Positions 8,082-19,515 of a DNA stretch of 36,094 bases are shown piece after piece. The stretch covers positions 1-36,094 of the forward strand of contig CAJWMA010000003.1 of NCBI GenBank assembly GCA_913042995.1, in the 5' to 3' direction. The notes beneath the pieces are model-generated. The model saw only the letters and a list, made by a program, of their open reading frames with translations. It had not been told where the DNA came from and ran no database searches. Both the position numbers and the translations under genes were made by a program. Every line of letters starts with the position of its first letter. The stretch's first letter is position 1. Source of the DNA: an uncultured bacterium. GTDB taxonomy: Bacteria; Planctomycetota; UBA8108.

Positions 8082-8110
8082 TTGACAAAACAGTATCTTG
8101 GGACTAATTT
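8082..8110 (+). promoter_or_regulatory. Sigma70-type promoter candidate
   Basis: TTGACA (8082-8087) - 17 nt - TAATTT (8105-8110), about 80 nt upstream of the TPR/alpha-CTD gene. Confidence 0.6.
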
Positions 8111-8191
8111 AGTCCGTTTAACAAAGGTCGCCGACAGGGGTTTCGGAGCCTTCTTTTTTTTCTCCCGTTTAAGCGACACGGAGAGGATCTC

Positions 8192-9565
8192 TTGGAAAAT
8201 ATAGTTTCAGACCAGACAAGTGACCAACCGGATCAGGATCTCGGCGCCATCGTCGGTGAGATCGCCGCGGAGGGTCTTCAGAAGCAGTCTTTTCACCGTC
8301 TCTCCTACGAGGCCTATTCCACGGCTAACGGGTCCGACCAACTCCGGTCTCTCGTTTCCGATTGGGGTGTCGTAGCCGGGTCAATTCCTTCGACCGCTGA
8401 TGCGGGCGCCATTCTCGGGTATTTTCAGATGATTCTTGGTGATCTGGATGCGGCCCAGGCCACCCTCGAGTCGAACGGTGGTTCGGACTGGGGTTCCTAC
8501 TGGCTCTGCCGGGTTCTCCTGGAGAAGAAGATGCCCGCAGAAGCCCTGGCGATCGCGAAGAAGTTCCAGGGAGGATCTCCCGCTTCGGTAGACTTTGCCT
8601 ACCTGGCTGTTGAGGCGTTTCTTCAGAGCGGCAACATTGACGAGGCTCGTTCGATTCTCGATTCGCTGAAGACGGGCCAGAGCGAATCCAGCCAGTTTGC
8701 CTATGCCAGCGGACTCTGCAGTGAGAAAGACGGCGATTACAGGGAGGCGATCGATTCTTACCGTCGAGCCATTTCGCTTGACGAAGAAAATTACGATGCC
8801 TATTTCCGTCTGGGCTACCTGCTGGGCTTCCATGCTACCGAAGAAGAGGAGCAGAGCGGCCTCGCCCTCGAATACTATGAGAAATGTCTCGATGCTCGCC
8901 CCATCAATACCAACGTGGTGATGAACCTCGGCATCCTCTATGAGGATTGTGAGCGATATCACGATGCCATCCAGTGCTTCCAGGCCGTCCTGAAGCATCA
9001 TCCGAACCACGCCAGGGCCAGGCTTTTTCTCGATGACGCCGTCGCCTCTACCACCATGTTCTACGATAAAGAGCAGGAGAAGAAGGCGGATCGTCAATCC
9101 CAGGTACTCAGGATCCCGGTCAGTGATTTCGAGCTCTCGGTCAGAAGCCGCAACTGTCTGCAGAAGATGAACATTGACACTCTTGGTGACCTCATCATGC
9201 GGACGGAGCAGGAATTGCTCTCCTACAAGAATTTCGGAGAGACCTCTCTTACCGAGATCAAGGAGATGCTGGTGCAGAAGAAGCTGCGTCTCGGGCAGGG
9301 ACTTGACGATCTGGATAGTGAGCCGCTCTCGCCCAGGAATCCGCTTGAGGCTTCCGCCGATCCGCAGGTACTCGATACCCCGATCGATTCACTGAACCTT
9401 TCTGTTCGCAGCCGGCGTTGCATGGAGCGTTTGAACGTTCGGTTGGTGAGAGATCTCATCAACAAGACCGAGGTCGAGCTCATGTCGGCCAAGAACTTTG
9501 GTATGACCTCTCTTACTGAGATCAAGCAGCAGCTCAGCGAGCAAGGCTTGTCGTTGCGCGGTTGA
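8192..9565 (+). CDS. TPR-repeat protein with two tandem RNA polymerase alpha-subunit C-terminal-domain-like modules
   Basis: TTG start with GGAGAGG upstream. TPR-like helices (DYREAIDSYRRAISLDEENYDAYFRLGYLLG, YHDAIQCFQAVLKHHPNHARARLFL). Then VSDFELSVRSRNCLQKMNIDTLGDLIMRTEQELLSYKNFGETSLTEIKEMLVQKKLRLGQGLDDL and IDSLNLSVRSRRCMERLNVRLVRDLINKTEVELMSAKNFGMTSLTEIKQQLSEQGLSL. Confidence 0.9.
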   Translation: MENIVSDQTSDQPDQDLGAIVGEIAAEGLQKQSFHRLSYEAYSTANGSDQLRSLVSDWGVVAGSIPSTADAGAILGYFQMILGDLDAAQATLESNGGSDWGSYWLCRVLLEKKMPAEALAIAKKFQGGSPASVDFAYLAVEAFLQSGNIDEARSILDSLKTGQSESSQFAYASGLCSEKDGDYREAIDSYRRAISLDEENYDAYFRLGYLLGFHATEEEEQSGLALEYYEKCLDARPINTNVVMNLGILYEDCERYHDAIQCFQAVLKHHPNHARARLFLDDAVASTTMFYDKEQEKKADRQSQVLRIPVSDFELSVRSRNCLQKMNIDTLGDLIMRTEQELLSYKNFGETSLTEIKEMLVQKKLRLGQGLDDLDSEPLSPRNPLEASADPQVLDTPIDSLNLSVRSRRCMERLNVRLVRDLINKTEVELMSAKNFGMTSLTEIKQQLSEQGLSLRG

Positions 9566-9599: not shown

Positions 9600-10232
9600 T
9601 TGTATCACCATCTTAGGGGTAGGCTGATCGAACTGGGCTCCCTGAGCGCCGTCGTGGAAACCTCCGGTGTCGGTTGGCATGTCGAGATCCCTCTCTCGAC
9701 CAGGTCGTTGATCGGCGATCGTCTCGGGGAAGAGGTGCTGCTCTATACCCATCTCCTCGTCAGGGAAGATGTGCTCAAGCTCTTCGGTTTTTCCACCCTG
9801 GAGGAGCGGGAACTTTTCAGGCTTCTTCTCTCGGTTTCGGGAACAGGACCCAAGATCGCGTTGCAGGCGCTCTCGGCTTTTTCGGTCAAGGAGCTCATAC
9901 GCGATCTCGGATCCAGTGATGTTGATTCGCTCAAACGCATCAAGGGTGTGGGGAAGAAGCTTGCCGAGCGGATGGTGCTGGAGCTTCGGGACAAGGCAGG
10001 AGTCCTGCAATTGGGCGAGCCTGGCGGCGGGGCTGAGCAGCTACCGGAAGGCGGAGGAGGTCGGGTAGCCGAAATCGCGATTACCGTGCTGGTGGAACAG
10101 CTCGGCTTTTCGCTTAAGGATGCCCGCAAACGGGTTGAGGCGGCCTGCCAGAAGCTGTCAGGGCCCGATTCCCCGGCGAGTGCCCCAGGTGAGGCTGAAG
10201 AGATCATCCGGGTCGTTCTCGAGAACTCCTGA
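9600..10232 (+). CDS. ruvA: Holliday junction branch migration protein RuvA
   Basis: TTG start; MYHHLRGRLIELGSLSAVVETSGVGWHVEIPLST...LLSVSGTGPKIALQALSAFSVKELIRDLGSSDVDSLKRIKGVGKKLAERMVLELRDK; C-terminal three-helix domain. Confidence 0.95.
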   Translation: MYHHLRGRLIELGSLSAVVETSGVGWHVEIPLSTRSLIGDRLGEEVLLYTHLLVREDVLKLFGFSTLEERELFRLLLSVSGTGPKIALQALSAFSVKELIRDLGSSDVDSLKRIKGVGKKLAERMVLELRDKAGVLQLGEPGGGAEQLPEGGGGRVAEIAITVLVEQLGFSLKDARKRVEAACQKLSGPDSPASAPGEAEEIIRVVLENS

Positions 10233-10463: not shown

Positions 10464-10635
10464 CTGTGTGTGACTTGCAGCTTGTTTGTGGGTTTTCTTT
10501 GTCCTGCTGGCAGGCCTTCCGGGAGTGGGTCCCGGGAAATGTCGGATTTGAAGAAGTGTGAAGGTAATTCGGCCGACCGGCTTTCTTTTTGAGCGGTTTC
10601 GCGGAGGTTTCCGGGCAGCCGAGAGAGGGGAACAA

Positions 10636-11772
10636 ATGAATCTGGGCAGTTGTAGCCAGGGTCCTGAACGCTGCGGTCGAGTTGGAAAGACAGCGGCTGG
10701 CGTGTTCCTTGCCCTGATAGCGGCGATGGCGCTTGGGGCTCTGCTGATGGGGTCTTCCCTTTCAGCCCAGGAGTCGGTGGCTGTTTCAGATGTGGCGGGC
10801 AGCGGTCCCGGCGCCGCAGTTTTCGCTGCGCGGCTCGAGCTTGAGCGCGGCAATCGGAGTGCCGCGGTTTCGCCGGTTCCGGAGGCGAGGAAAATAAGGC
10901 GCGCAGTCCGGCGCGGTTCGCGGGCGGGCCAGCGCGGAGAAAGAGCTCCCTGGGTCGCCATCAGAACACTCAAGCCTCCGACTTTCGAACAGGATGGTTT
11001 TTTCAGCGAATCCCGCGGGCTCGAGAAATTTACAGCCAGGAGCCTGGAGAATGATTTCGACAGGCCTGTTTTTGATGAGCCGCCGGTCTACGTCAACTAT
11101 GATCCCGACCCCATGTTCAGACTCAAGCCTCCTGTCGAGACCCGGTTTGCCAGGGCTGCCAGGAGACTGGCCGAGAAAAAATTCTATGTTGAGCTCAGGC
11201 GTAACCTGAAGAGGGAGTGGCAGAAGAACTACGAGAACAGCTCGGGGCTGGCCTATGATAAGTACCAGGAGCAGATGCTGCGCATCAATGAGATCGGCAG
11301 GGAGGCTCATGAGTACAACCTGCTGGTTGGAGATTACTATTCAAGCCAGCTCAAGGGAGCGCTTTTCGAGGAAGGCTACGAAGGCGGCGAGAGAGATATC
11401 CAGCTCCTGGGCTGGGGGCCTTTCACGATCATGGACTCGGGGTCCATGAAGGTTCATTTCGAGAAGCTTTTCAATACGGAAGATCCCCTCCCTCGGCTGG
11501 GGGAGCCCGAGACCAAGAACCCGGGCCGTGAAGGCTTCCTTGTGTCCGAACATTATCGCGTGGACACCAACCTGAGATTACGTTTTGATCTCGGCCAGCT
11601 TATTGAAGAAGGAGATGTGGTTGGCCTGCTCGAGAGCTACGGCGTGTCGGTCAGCATCGACTGGCTGTCAAAGATTCTCGGGCGTGAGATGCTGACCGCT
11701 GAGCTCGAGGCGGAGGTGAACAGGCAGGGCGATTACGCCATTGCCTTGAACTTTGTTCTCATCGGGAGGTGA
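10636..11772 (+). CDS. Hypothetical secreted/membrane-anchored protein
   Basis: ORF track begins at 10558; ATG at 10636 preceded by GAGAGGGG looks better. Hydrophobic segment VFLALIAAMALGALLMGSSLSAQE near the N-terminus; no recognised domain. Confidence 0.7.
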   Translation: MNLGSCSQGPERCGRVGKTAAGVFLALIAAMALGALLMGSSLSAQESVAVSDVAGSGPGAAVFAARLELERGNRSAAVSPVPEARKIRRAVRRGSRAGQRGERAPWVAIRTLKPPTFEQDGFFSESRGLEKFTARSLENDFDRPVFDEPPVYVNYDPDPMFRLKPPVETRFARAARRLAEKKFYVELRRNLKREWQKNYENSSGLAYDKYQEQMLRINEIGREAHEYNLLVGDYYSSQLKGALFEEGYEGGERDIQLLGWGPFTIMDSGSMKVHFEKLFNTEDPLPRLGEPETKNPGREGFLVSEHYRVDTNLRLRFDLGQLIEEGDVVGLLESYGVSVSIDWLSKILGREMLTAELEAEVNRQGDYAIALNFVLIGR

Positions 11773-13459: not shown

Positions 13460-13838
13460 TCAGTCTTTTGCTTCCATGGTGGAGTAGGCCCTGGAGGTGA
13501 AACGGTCGAGGGCGTCGCAGGTCCTCTTTCCCAGCTCCGCGCCTGTCTTCAGCTCATCTCCGAGCTCCAGGTACGAGGACTCTTTCGAATCGTATTCCGG
13601 CCAGGCGGGTAACCCCTTGGCGTTGGGATTGCCCGTTTCGGAAAATCGCACCCAGTATTTCATGAGCTTCCGGGCAAGGCTCCGGCCGCCTTCCCCGGCG
13701 CGGCCGGCCTTGAGTGTGTTGAAGACATAGGCGAGCTCGATCGCATGGGGGGCGCCAAGGGCCGGGTAGCTCCAGCCTTTGCCGTCGGCAAGCTCCGGAA
13801 ATTTATTCCCCAGGTCATTTGCGGAGTATAATTTCTCT
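13460..13838 (-). pseudogene. C-terminal remnant of a type-B carboxylesterase
   Basis: WSYPALGAPHAIELAYVFNTLKAG...LARKLMKYWVRFSETGNPNAKGLPAWPEYDSKESSYLELGDEL resembles the carboxylesterase C-terminus (catalytic-His region GxxHxxEL.YVF). The nucleophile-elbow half is absent; upstream DNA is the FHA gene on the other strand. Confidence 0.65.
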
Positions 13839-16415
13839 GTGCCAAAGCAAGTAAGCGGACCCCATTTTCTGCTCGCGATTGCCGGTGAAGATTCCCAGCC
13901 GCGCCTGGTGATTCTTCCCGAGGGGGAGACCCTGCTCGGCCGCTCGCGGAAAAACGATATCATTCTCAAGGATTCGGCCGTCTCGCGTGAGCATGGCCGG
14001 GTGCTGCGCCAGGGAGCGGTGGTTCGCTACGAGGATCTTGGAGACAGGAACATTACCCTCATTGGTTCCAGTCCCGCTCATGGCAGGGAGCTGCGGGATG
14101 GCGATATTTTGAAAATGGGCCATTCGCGCCTGGAGTTTCATTCCGGCGCCGTCCTGGCGGCGCGGCCGTCGGCAAAGGCTGGAGGCATCGCCCCGCGCAG
14201 GCGTGTTTCTGATTCCTACAAGGCTAAAACCAGGTCAGCCGGTCTGCCCATGATGGTCGCGACGGTCGCGCTGATGGGCATCATCCTGGCGATCGTTCTT
14301 TTCAGGAATCCTCCTTCGCAACAGCCGTCCGCCGGTACGAATACGAACCTTCTCGTCCGGCGGAGTCAGCCATCCCGGAAGGAGAGCAGCTCGAAGTATC
14401 CCAAGGTACCAGAGGTCACCAGGCCGAAGCGGGCCGTGGTGAGCCCTGCCGCGAAGCCGCCTCCGGCTGAAGCGAAGCCCAAGCCGTCGGACGGCGGACG
14501 GGGCGCCGTTGCCGTAGAGACCCCGGTTCCCGCGGCAAAGAAAGAAAAACCGCCGGTTCCGAAGCCCGTTATCGTGAGACCGGTGGTTCCGAAGAATGCT
14601 GAGGAGGCCTACTTCGAGGCCCACGTAGTTCCCTTTCTTTCAAAATACTGCAACTCATGTCACAACCAGGAGAAGAAGAAGGGTGAGCTGGCGCTCAATG
14701 GTTATCTTGTCGCTTCCGAGGCGGTTAAGGACAAGCAGGCATGGGAGGCTGTGGCCAAGAAGATCAAGGCGGCCGAGATGCCTCCGAAGAGAAGCCGGAA
14801 GCCCACAGAAGATGAGGTCTCCAAGGTCGTCGCCTGGATTGACGCGGCAGTCTTCGGACTCAACGAGGGCAATGGGAACGATCCTGGCCGGGTTACCATG
14901 AGGAGGCTCAACAAGGTCGAGTACAACTATACGGTCCATGATCTTGTTGGCGTTGATCTCGACCTGGCCGATGCTTTTCCCGCCGATGAAATTGGCTATG
15001 GATTCGATAACATCAGCGATCTGCTCTCGATACCGCCGCTGTTGATGGAGAAATATCTCAAGGCGGGCGAGAAGATCGTGGAGGCGGCCTGGTCTAAAGA
15101 TGAATCCCGCGAGCGGATCCTGATCTGCTCGCCGAAAAAGAAGAGCGAGATGAAGACCTGCGCCAGGAAAATCATCAAGGCCTTCGGACTCAGGGCTTTT
15201 CGGCGTCCCCTGACCTCCAGCGAGACCGCGGCCCTGGTCAGCCTTGTCGAGCTTGCGGTGAAGAATGACGATGGGTTTGATAAAGGTATCCAGCTCGCGG
15301 TCCAGGCCATGTTGGTGTCTCCCCATTTTCTCTTCCGGGTAGAGATCGACCCAAAGCCTGATGATCCCGAGGCGGTACGCGCCCTCAACGACTACGAACT
15401 CGCCTCACGGCTGTCCTATTTTCTCTGGAGCAGCATGCCGGACGATGAATTGTTCGAGCTCGCCCGCACGAGAAGCCTTCGAAGGCGCAGCGTGCTTGAA
15501 AAACAGGTCGAGCGGATGCTTGCGGATAAGAGATCGCAGGCCCTGGTTCAAACCTTCGCCGCCCACTGGCTTGGCATCCGGACGATGAAGCTGGTCACTC
15601 CCGATGAGGAAACCTTCCCCGATTTTGATCAGCAGCTTCGGGATGCCATGTGCAGGGAGACCGAGCTCTTCTTCGAGGAGATCATGAAGAAGGATCTCAG
15701 CGTTCTCCTCTTTATTGATTCGGACTTCACCTTTCTCAACCAGCGTCTTGCCGAGCACTACGGTATTCGCGGAGTGAGCGGCGCGAAGCATCAACGTGTA
15801 GCCCTGGAGGACGGGCGCCGCGGCGGAGTCCTCACCCAGGGTACTGTTCTGACGATCACCTCCGATCCCACCCGGACCTCTCCGGTGAAGCGGGGGAAAT
15901 GGATTCTCGAACAGATTCTCGGAAGCCCTCCTCCCCCTCCTCCTCCGGGCGCGGATAATTTTGTCGGCAAGGCTACCGAGGAGGGGTTGACCCTCCGCGA
16001 GCGTATGAAGCTGCACCGGCAGAATCCCGAATGCGCGGTCTGCCACGAAAAGATGGACACCATCGGGCTGGGATTCGAAAGATTTGACGGGATTGGCACC
16101 TTTCGGGAAACCCAGTCCGGAGCGCCGATTATTGTCAACGGCACCTTGCCGAGCGGCCAGAGCTTCAAGAATGTGACCGAATTGAAGAGCCTTCTGCTGC
16201 GGCATAAGGCTGATTTCTGCCGCTGCCTGACCGAGAAAATGATGATCTTTGCCCTCGGCCGGGGGCTGGAGTATACTGATACTTCACTGGTAGATGAGAT
16301 CTCGAAAGAGCTCGCTCTGAGCGGCTACCGATTTTCGACGTTAGTGAAACAGATCGTCCTGTCTGAGAAGTTCAGGAAACGCAGAGGGGAAAAACCGCTG
16401 ACCGCGGTGAAATAG
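13839..16415 (+). CDS. FHA domain - TM - planctomycete-type cytochrome C (PSCyt1) with DUF1587/DUF1592/DUF1588/DUF1585-like regions
   Basis: FHA core GETLLGRSRKNDIILKDSAVSREHGRVL; TM LPMMVATVALMGIILAIVLF; CNSCH heme motif (14649-14663) in PSCyt1-like context; CAVCHEKMDTIGLGFERFDGIG (CxxCH at 16032-16046). ORF track begins at 13779; GTG at 13839 gives a better FHA N-terminus. Confidence 0.88.
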   Translation: MPKQVSGPHFLLAIAGEDSQPRLVILPEGETLLGRSRKNDIILKDSAVSREHGRVLRQGAVVRYEDLGDRNITLIGSSPAHGRELRDGDILKMGHSRLEFHSGAVLAARPSAKAGGIAPRRRVSDSYKAKTRSAGLPMMVATVALMGIILAIVLFRNPPSQQPSAGTNTNLLVRRSQPSRKESSSKYPKVPEVTRPKRAVVSPAAKPPPAEAKPKPSDGGRGAVAVETPVPAAKKEKPPVPKPVIVRPVVPKNAEEAYFEAHVVPFLSKYCNSCHNQEKKKGELALNGYLVASEAVKDKQAWEAVAKKIKAAEMPPKRSRKPTEDEVSKVVAWIDAAVFGLNEGNGNDPGRVTMRRLNKVEYNYTVHDLVGVDLDLADAFPADEIGYGFDNISDLLSIPPLLMEKYLKAGEKIVEAAWSKDESRERILICSPKKKSEMKTCARKIIKAFGLRAFRRPLTSSETAALVSLVELAVKNDDGFDKGIQLAVQAMLVSPHFLFRVEIDPKPDDPEAVRALNDYELASRLSYFLWSSMPDDELFELARTRSLRRRSVLEKQVERMLADKRSQALVQTFAAHWLGIRTMKLVTPDEETFPDFDQQLRDAMCRETELFFEEIMKKDLSVLLFIDSDFTFLNQRLAEHYGIRGVSGAKHQRVALEDGRRGGVLTQGTVLTITSDPTRTSPVKRGKWILEQILGSPPPPPPPGADNFVGKATEEGLTLRERMKLHRQNPECAVCHEKMDTIGLGFERFDGIGTFRETQSGAPIIVNGTLPSGQSFKNVTELKSLLLRHKADFCRCLTEKMMIFALGRGLEYTDTSLVDEISKELALSGYRFSTLVKQIVLSEKFRKRRGEKPLTAVK

Positions 16416-17880: not shown

Positions 17881-19515
17881 TCAGCGCGGTCTCTTCTCGG
17901 CCTTTCCGTTCAGCTCCCAATGCCACGGGTAATCCAGGTACCGAACCGTGATTTTTCTGCCGCTACGGGCGGCCTGATGAAGGGCCGCGTGGTAGTGGGC
18001 GGCGTGGGCCTGGACCGAACCGGAGATGGCCTCGAAGTCAGTGTAATACCATTCGTAGATCGGGCTGAGCTCGAGAAGCCCTTCCCGGAGATCGAAGCGC
18101 AGCCAGGTCTCCTTTGAATGCACGAGCCGCGCCTGTTCTTCAAGCTGGCTCTCGAGCTTCGCTCCCGTGTAGGCCTCCGAGCGAAGGGGAGGACAGCCGG
18201 CGGCCGCGCAGACCAGCGCGAAGTGGATTCGCGCTTCGCGGAAATGGTTCCTGATCTGGTCGTGTTCGATTTCGTCCAGGCTCAGGCTCTTACCGCCGAT
18301 CTTCCAGCGCGGGTCTTCCCAGCGTATCTCCTCGGGGATATCGAGGATCGAGTCGATGCGGCCATGGTGGTCCAGCACCAGGCGAAGGGTGAAGGCGTTG
18401 TAGGCGTTGATGAGCAGGGCCAGTCGTTCGTCTCTTCCCAGGCGGTCGAGATCCTGGCCGCCAAGGCTCTCAATATAGCGGTCAAGATCTTCGGAGTTGG
18501 CGGCAAGGGCCGGGTAGTCAACCCAGCCCTCCGGGTCGACATGCGTTCTGAGGACCGAGTTCAGGAGAGAGTGGTCAACCACGGATTCTCCTCTGTTGGC
18601 CGAGTAGCTCTCGGTCAGCTCGGCGCGCGGCGGGCCAAGAAGATCGACCAGCGCCTCACGCAGGAGGTTTGGCTGGAACCGGCTGAGGAGGCCGCAGGCC
18701 AGGATGAGCGCTCCGGCCGCGGCGAGCAGGATGGTCTTGAGATCGATGCTCCGGGCCGGGGGAGACGGCTTGTCAAATTTACCAAGTGAGGCAAGCTGGC
18801 CGCGGGCCAGCCGGGTGACGTAGATTGTCGCGGCCACCGTGGCGAGCAGCCCGGCTCCCTGGAGGATCCACCTCGCTGTCTGCAGCGGCTCCTCTCCCGT
18901 TGCCGCGCCGGCCGCTTCGCGAGAGATATAGCCAAGGTAGACGTAGAGGAAGGTGCCCGGGAGCATCGCGATCCAGCTCGCGAGAGTGTAGGTGAGAAAA
19001 CGAACAGGGGTCAGTCCCCAGAGATAGTTCTGTAGATTGAATGGGATAGCCGGAGAGAGCCGCATGAGGGCGACCGTCTTCCAGCCGCCCTCCTCGAGCG
19101 CCTTGTCGATGGCCGTGAGGTAGGGGCGCTGTTCCAGCAGGCGCGAGACCCGGTTCCTGGCCAGGCGCCGGGCGGCCAGAAACGACAGGGCGGCTCCCGC
19201 GGTGGAGGCGATCGAGACAGTCAGGGTGCCGACTCCCAGGCCGAAGGAGACCCCGGCAAAGAAGGTCAGGATGGAGCCCGGCACCATCGCCACGGTGGCG
19301 ATGGCGTAGGTGACCCCATAGAGGATGGGACCCCAGGGACCCGCGTCATCGATCAATGATGAGAGCCGCCTGAGCGATGATTCAAGCGGCAGGGAGCCTG
19401 CGCAAAGCAGCAGGCCGGTGATGAGCATCAGCGCCGAGATCCAGCGAAGGGCGCTTCCCAGGCCTTTCAGGCCTCTTTCCCGCGACAATTCAGGGGCTGG
19501 GGGATCGGTCTTCAT
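17881..19515 (-). CDS. TVP38/TMEM64 (VTT domain) membrane protein fused to a DUF547 domain
   Basis: N-terminal half: MVPGSILTFFAGVSFGLGVGTLTVSIASTAGAALSFLAARRLARNRV, ALMRLSPAIPFNLQNYLWGLTPV. C-terminal half: WVDYPALAANSEDLDRYIESL...LALLINAYNAFTLRLVLDHH...FALVCAAAGCPPLRSEAYTG. Confidence 0.85.
   Translation of the reverse strand: MKTDPPAPELSRERGLKGLGSALRWISALMLITGLLLCAGSLPLESSLRRLSSLIDDAGPWGPILYGVTYAIATVAMVPGSILTFFAGVSFGLGVGTLTVSIASTAGAALSFLAARRLARNRVSRLLEQRPYLTAIDKALEEGGWKTVALMRLSPAIPFNLQNYLWGLTPVRFLTYTLASWIAMLPGTFLYVYLGYISREAAGAATGEEPLQTARWILQGAGLLATVAATIYVTRLARGQLASLGKFDKPSPPARSIDLKTILLAAAGALILACGLLSRFQPNLLREALVDLLGPPRAELTESYSANRGESVVDHSLLNSVLRTHVDPEGWVDYPALAANSEDLDRYIESLGGQDLDRLGRDERLALLINAYNAFTLRLVLDHHGRIDSILDIPEEIRWEDPRWKIGGKSLSLDEIEHDQIRNHFREARIHFALVCAAAGCPPLRSEAYTGAKLESQLEEQARLVHSKETWLRFDLREGLLELSPIYEWYYTDFEAISGSVQAHAAHYHAALHQAARSGRKITVRYLDYPWHWELNGKAEKRPR

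Follow-up and report, generated by a model that had tools for sequence, protein, structure and literature searches.

The gene described here lies in the window, which is the whole 36,094-nucleotide stretch of DNA analyzed. An initial annotation of this DNA had singled out positions 9105-9565, which form the 3' third of an open reading frame (ORF) at 8192-9565. This ORF encodes a TPR protein that ends in two true RNA polymerase alpha-subunit C-terminal domains (alpha-CTDs). The features of the gene and its surroundings, with the source of each assignment in brackets, are as follows.

8082..8110, + strand: probable promoter, TTGACA (8082-8087), 17 nt, TAATTT (8105-8110) (conserved block)
8180..8194, + strand: ribosome-binding site GGAGAGG, then TTG start codon (8192) (sequence)
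8192..9565, + strand: TPR - tandem alpha-CTD protein, 457 aa (ORF, Pfam, AlphaFold2)
8390..9055, + strand: TPR superhelix, aa ~67-288 (Pfam TPR models, Foldseek, regional conservation)
9098..9295, + strand: alpha-CTD 1 (CTD1), aa 303-368, with DNA determinant R318 N321 C322 G349 T351 S352 E355 and sigma-facing acids D312 and E314 (Pfam, structure match, residue table of 150 members)
9296..9361, + strand: acidic flexible linker between the alpha-CTDs, aa 369-390 (low pLDDT, poor conservation)
9362..9559, + strand: alpha-CTD 2 (CTD2), aa 391-456, with R406, R409 (the N268 position), C410, G437, T439, S440 and E443 (Pfam, residue table)
9600..10232, + strand: ruvA, the next gene downstream (Pfam RuvA_N and HHH_5)

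The TTG start is supported by three congeners, which have TTG or GTG at the same position. The TPR scaffold is acidic and apparently soluble; the computed net charge of the protein is about -26, and no transmembrane segment is apparent by hydropathy in its 457 residues. Pfam TPR models span roughly aa 100-283, with TPR_19 at 72.8 bits and others also above the cut-off. Regional conservation in the array is highest in the last repeats (FRLGY, NLGxLYED and RAxL).

The sequence at 8082-8110 had been called a strong-looking promoter. Across four species of one genus, a 30-nt block here is nearly identical and its flanks vary; by operator search, the block occurs once in the genome. The element is thus conserved, but its strength was not borne out, as the -10 is poor and not close to consensus. 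The weak -10 also explains why a consensus promoter scan did not list 8082-8110. A functional promoter at this site is plausible from its conservation.

Among 80 related loci, ruvA lies downstream on the same strand in 24 (median 14 bp). At other loci, the same strand carries a SpoIID-like gene (31 of 80) and after it tgt (28), yajC (19) and secD (12), all four named by eye from representative sequences. These are common housekeeping genes and give no specific functional hint. Three further ORFs in the window were recorded. The ORF at 10558-11772 (+ strand, 404 aa), downstream of ruvA, has no Pfam match. The one at 13779-16415 (+ strand) joins an FHA domain (aa 52-114) to a Planctomycetota cytochrome/PSD protein (DUF1587, 1592, 1588, 1585, 1595). 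The union is unusual: the FHA domain binds phosphothreonine, and cytochrome-type proteins of this sort are normally exported. At 17881-19515 (- strand), a VTT (DedA-type) membrane domain is fused with DUF547.

Pfam RNA_pol_A_CTD (PF03118) matches the protein twice, at 143.4 bits in total (E 1.7e-42, cut-off 23.8). In a six-frame genome scan, the single modules scored 80.8 and 75.1 bits, versus 73.1 for the CTD of the genome's own RpoA. Generic HhH domains had been named as the finding that would speak against this identity. No Pfam HhH family matched the 457-aa protein at E<=1, although the neighboring RuvA does match HHH_5, and the structural matches described below are to alpha-CTDs; a generic HhH protein was therefore ruled out.

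An AlphaFold2 model built with 49 sequences (mean pLDDT 90.4) shows a long TPR-type helix array followed by two small domains with a low-confidence linker between them. The alpha-CTD domains themselves reach a pLDDT of about 90, and their placement relative to each other is unreliable in the model (pTM 0.44). When the whole chain was submitted to Foldseek, the matches were TPR superhelices. The tandem segment alone matched solved alpha-CTDs of E. coli, Bacillus, Caulobacter, Vibrio and Synechococcus, including some in coupling and antitermination complexes. The compact matches superimpose at 0.7-1.3 A over about 65 residues with 37-53% identity (45-53% at 0.7-0.9 A), and those to the E. coli and Caulobacter CTDs at 0.7-0.9 A over ~64 residues. 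Structure prediction, which the initial annotation had proposed as a check, thus recovered the alpha-CTD fold, and its assignment of two tandem alpha-CTD modules holds by both profile and structure.

The same annotation held that the gene is not rpoA and that a TPR array stands in place of the alpha N-terminal domain (NTD), and we agree. Pfam finds TPR models and no alpha NTD in the protein. The NCBIfam rpoA models have cut-offs of at least 228 bits and give the protein no more than 84-146 bits, so it is not rpoA by these models either. The genome encodes its real RpoA on another contig; that protein is a complete alpha subunit, aligning with E. coli RpoA over residues 17-329 at 213 bits. Both rpoA and an rpoA fragment were accordingly rejected as identities for the gene.

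The distribution of the family was examined in 147 evenly sampled Planctomycetota genomes, each at least 90% complete. A family profile matched at the full-length level (E<=1.3e-80) in 145 of the 147; an RpoA CTD alone scores only about 1e-26 with this profile. The two exceptions were G054, with only an RpoA-CTD-grade match, and G110, with no match. The gap in G110 may be an assembly artifact, given that a congener has the gene. A scan of genome contigs confirmed at least 587 relatives. Nearly all of the best 80 of these are labeled Planctomycetota, and they include Gemmataceae, Pirellulaceae, Phycisphaerae, Sedimentisphaerales and Kuenenia; one with the label "Proteobacteria" (L038) is probably mislabeled. 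There were no virus-encoded relatives among the pattern matches. The matches from a plasmid search lie in organisms of other phyla, either at an annotated rpoA or where nothing is annotated, and are most likely rpoA itself. The family is therefore no local oddity; it is core and near-universal within the Planctomycetota sampled.

For residue counts, 150 family members were extracted independently of the CTD motif, and 146 of them have two alpha-CTDs, separated across the family by 14-53 aa. In three members from one genus (L139-L141) the protein stops after CTD1, and L144 is truncated by the end of its contig. A sample seeded with the motif (80 loci and 30 others) had given two CTDs in 110 of 110 members; in view of these exceptions, we do not hold that every member has two.

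Residue positions are given below in E. coli alpha numbering. In E. coli, R265 and N268 contact the backbone and minor groove of DNA (PMC11434276). As had been noted from the sequence, CTD1 of the window protein has the full E. coli determinant (R265, N268, C269, G296, S299 and E302) except for T in place of K298. Across CTD1s (n=150), the counts are R265 149, N268 141, C269 138, G296 150, T298 141, S299 147 and E302 149. In Planctomycetota RpoA (n=20, L114-L133), they are R265 20, N268 19, C269 20, G296 20, T298 19, S299 16 and E302 20. The commonest string is R-N-C-G-T-S-E in both, found in 132 of 150 CTD1s and 15 of 20 RpoAs.

The K298-to-T change reported for module 1 is thus real, but it is not specific to that module: module 2 has it as well, and so do 19 of the 20 Planctomycetota polymerases, at a position known as an UP-element contact. 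T298 is therefore the state of the lineage and no defect, and module 1 is intact by the standard of its lineage. We rejected the idea that the change marks an impaired module. Since the K298 of E. coli is absent, E. coli-like UP binding should not be assumed.

The N268-to-R change reported for module 2 is also present, and CTD2 of the window protein retains R265, G296, S299 and E302. Among 146 CTD2s, R265 and E302 are invariant (146/146), and position 268 is R or K in 124. CTD1 departs at 265 or 268 in nine of the 150 members. One of these nine, L147, has a CTD1 without R265, N268, C269 and S299, whereas its CTD2 retains R265. CTD2 is degenerate in a few members (L148, L151 and L156). The existence of lineages with an altered CTD1 or without CTD2 means that neither face is indispensable everywhere. 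Taken with L139-L141, these variants indicate that the modules divide the labor differently from lineage to lineage.

A second conserved surface of CTD1 faces sigma. In E. coli, contacts of D259 and E261 with R603 of sigma70 help the UP element to function (PMC5511352). In CTD1, position 259 is acidic in 150 of 150 members and 261 in 143 of 150. RpoA (n=20) is variable at 259 (Q6, E5, A3, H2, D1 and G1 among the commonest), with about 6 of 20 acidic. Judged from these alignments, CTD1 retains the acidic sigma-facing pair better than RpoA does. On the sigma side, an arginine in the motif HPxRSR/K, which we take to be the counterpart of E. coli sigma70 R603, is conserved in each of the nine housekeeping sigma C-termini compared, including that of the window genome.

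Conservation of whole domains was compared in 18 genomes in which both the family gene and rpoA could be read. Mean pairwise identity was 77% for CTD1, 58% for CTD2, 59% for the RpoA CTD and 61% for the RpoA NTD. CTD1 exceeded the RpoA CTD in 97% of genome pairs, which are not independent of one another. A tree built from 123 domains grouped the CTD1s in one clade and the RpoA CTDs in another, each with a bootstrap of 100 and apart from CTD2; its 64 columns are too few to place where the modules came from. Because the faces of an alpha-CTD bind proteins as well, this conservation does not single out DNA as the ligand.

The alpha-CTD domain itself is already known, and databases will recognize it. 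The family resembles the RpoA CTD (PF03118) in fold, sequence and DNA-contact residues, with T298 common to it and Planctomycetota RpoA. It differs from RpoA in having no alpha NTD, two CTDs per chain, a TPR scaffold and a CTD2 that usually has R or K at 268. An alpha-CTD outside rpoA is also found in NCBIfam NF005841/PRK07758 ("hypothetical protein"), but that family is about 95 aa long, with one domain and no TPR, and the window protein scores 34.5 bits with its model (cut-off 115). The C-terminal acidic repeats of NusA are likewise tandem small helical modules linked to transcription and the alpha-CTD; they are absent from the Pfam matches and the top 50 Foldseek hits of the window protein. 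AfsR/SARP-type activators with TPR domains act on transcription initiation (PMC10936776). Unlike the present family, which itself bears alpha-CTDs, AfsR uses a SARP domain for this and also contains a NOD; Pfam found neither SARP nor NOD in the window protein. We found no study of the family in the open-access literature searched, and no mention of it was found in the main text of a Planctopirus limnophila essentiality paper (PMC10632474). In NCBI, such proteins presumably carry the labels "RNA polymerase alpha subunit C-terminal domain-containing" or "TPR". What is new is the phylum-wide spread, a DNA determinant that matches the polymerase of the lineage including T298, and a CTD1 more conserved than the CTD of the polymerase.

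We propose that this core protein of the Planctomycetota acts at promoters, where it provides alpha-CTDs in trans, a reading to which we assign a probability of about 0.5. From the residue patterns, we infer binding to DNA, sigma and a partner. Like the CTD of the polymerase, CTD1 would bind A/T-rich (UP-element-like) promoter DNA in the minor groove, and its acidic 259/261 face could contact sigma region 4. A second contact to DNA or polymerase may come from CTD2, which has a basic residue at the N268 position. This second contact would make it possible for one protein to mimic the CTD pair of the alpha dimer. A partner would sit in the TPR groove. As a general or broadly acting factor, the protein as a whole would bring RNA polymerase to promoters, stabilize it there or modulate it. 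The fullest form of the proposal is more tentative: a phylum-wide general initiation factor whose functional alpha-CTD pair sits in trans at promoters, next to sigma region 4, and which links a TPR-bound partner or signal to RNA polymerase.

The retained DNA determinant of CTD1 would also suit an adaptor outside transcription, in which the alpha-CTDs serve as A/T-rich minor-groove binders that tether a TPR partner to the nucleoid or to sites of repair or recombination. The adjacent ruvA, in the window and in the 24 related loci, fits such a role; this adjacency is not general, as spoIID-tgt-yajC-secD genes are found elsewhere. Moreover, the acids at 259/261 of CTD1 are conserved to the same degree as its DNA face, and plain DNA binding needs no such acids. 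We consider this explanation unlikely. Another possible explanation is an accessory factor held on RNA polymerase or the ribosome by its TPR array, with the CTDs working in elongation or transcription-translation coupling by a NusA-like logic. Near-universal conservation suits a component of a core machine, and alpha-CTDs do act in elongation, as the coupling and antitermination complexes among the Foldseek matches reflect. No kinship in sequence or structure to NusA or elongation factors appears among the listed Pfam and Foldseek matches, and we regard this role as improbable.

Free alpha-CTDs could instead act as a decoy or sink, binding activators or anti-activators of the polymerase CTD and so setting their availability. 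The surface of CTD1 looks complete enough for this, including 286/288 of the activator-contact face. A decoy would need neither a near-invariant DNA determinant nor another CTD whose position 268 is basic, and the polymerase CTD, which CTD1 would have to imitate, is less conserved than CTD1 in the 18 matched genomes. We regard a decoy as improbable.

Very little is known of transcription control in Planctomycetota. With its near-universal presence and an alpha-CTD more conserved than that of the polymerase, this factor is a prime candidate for a phylum-specific part of the initiation machinery. The family is amenable to study in tractable planctomycetes such as P. limnophila. If the fullest form of the proposal is correct, the polymerase of Planctomycetota would share UP-element recognition with a second, separate protein. 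The family would also be a natural case of an alpha-CTD at work away from the alpha subunit.
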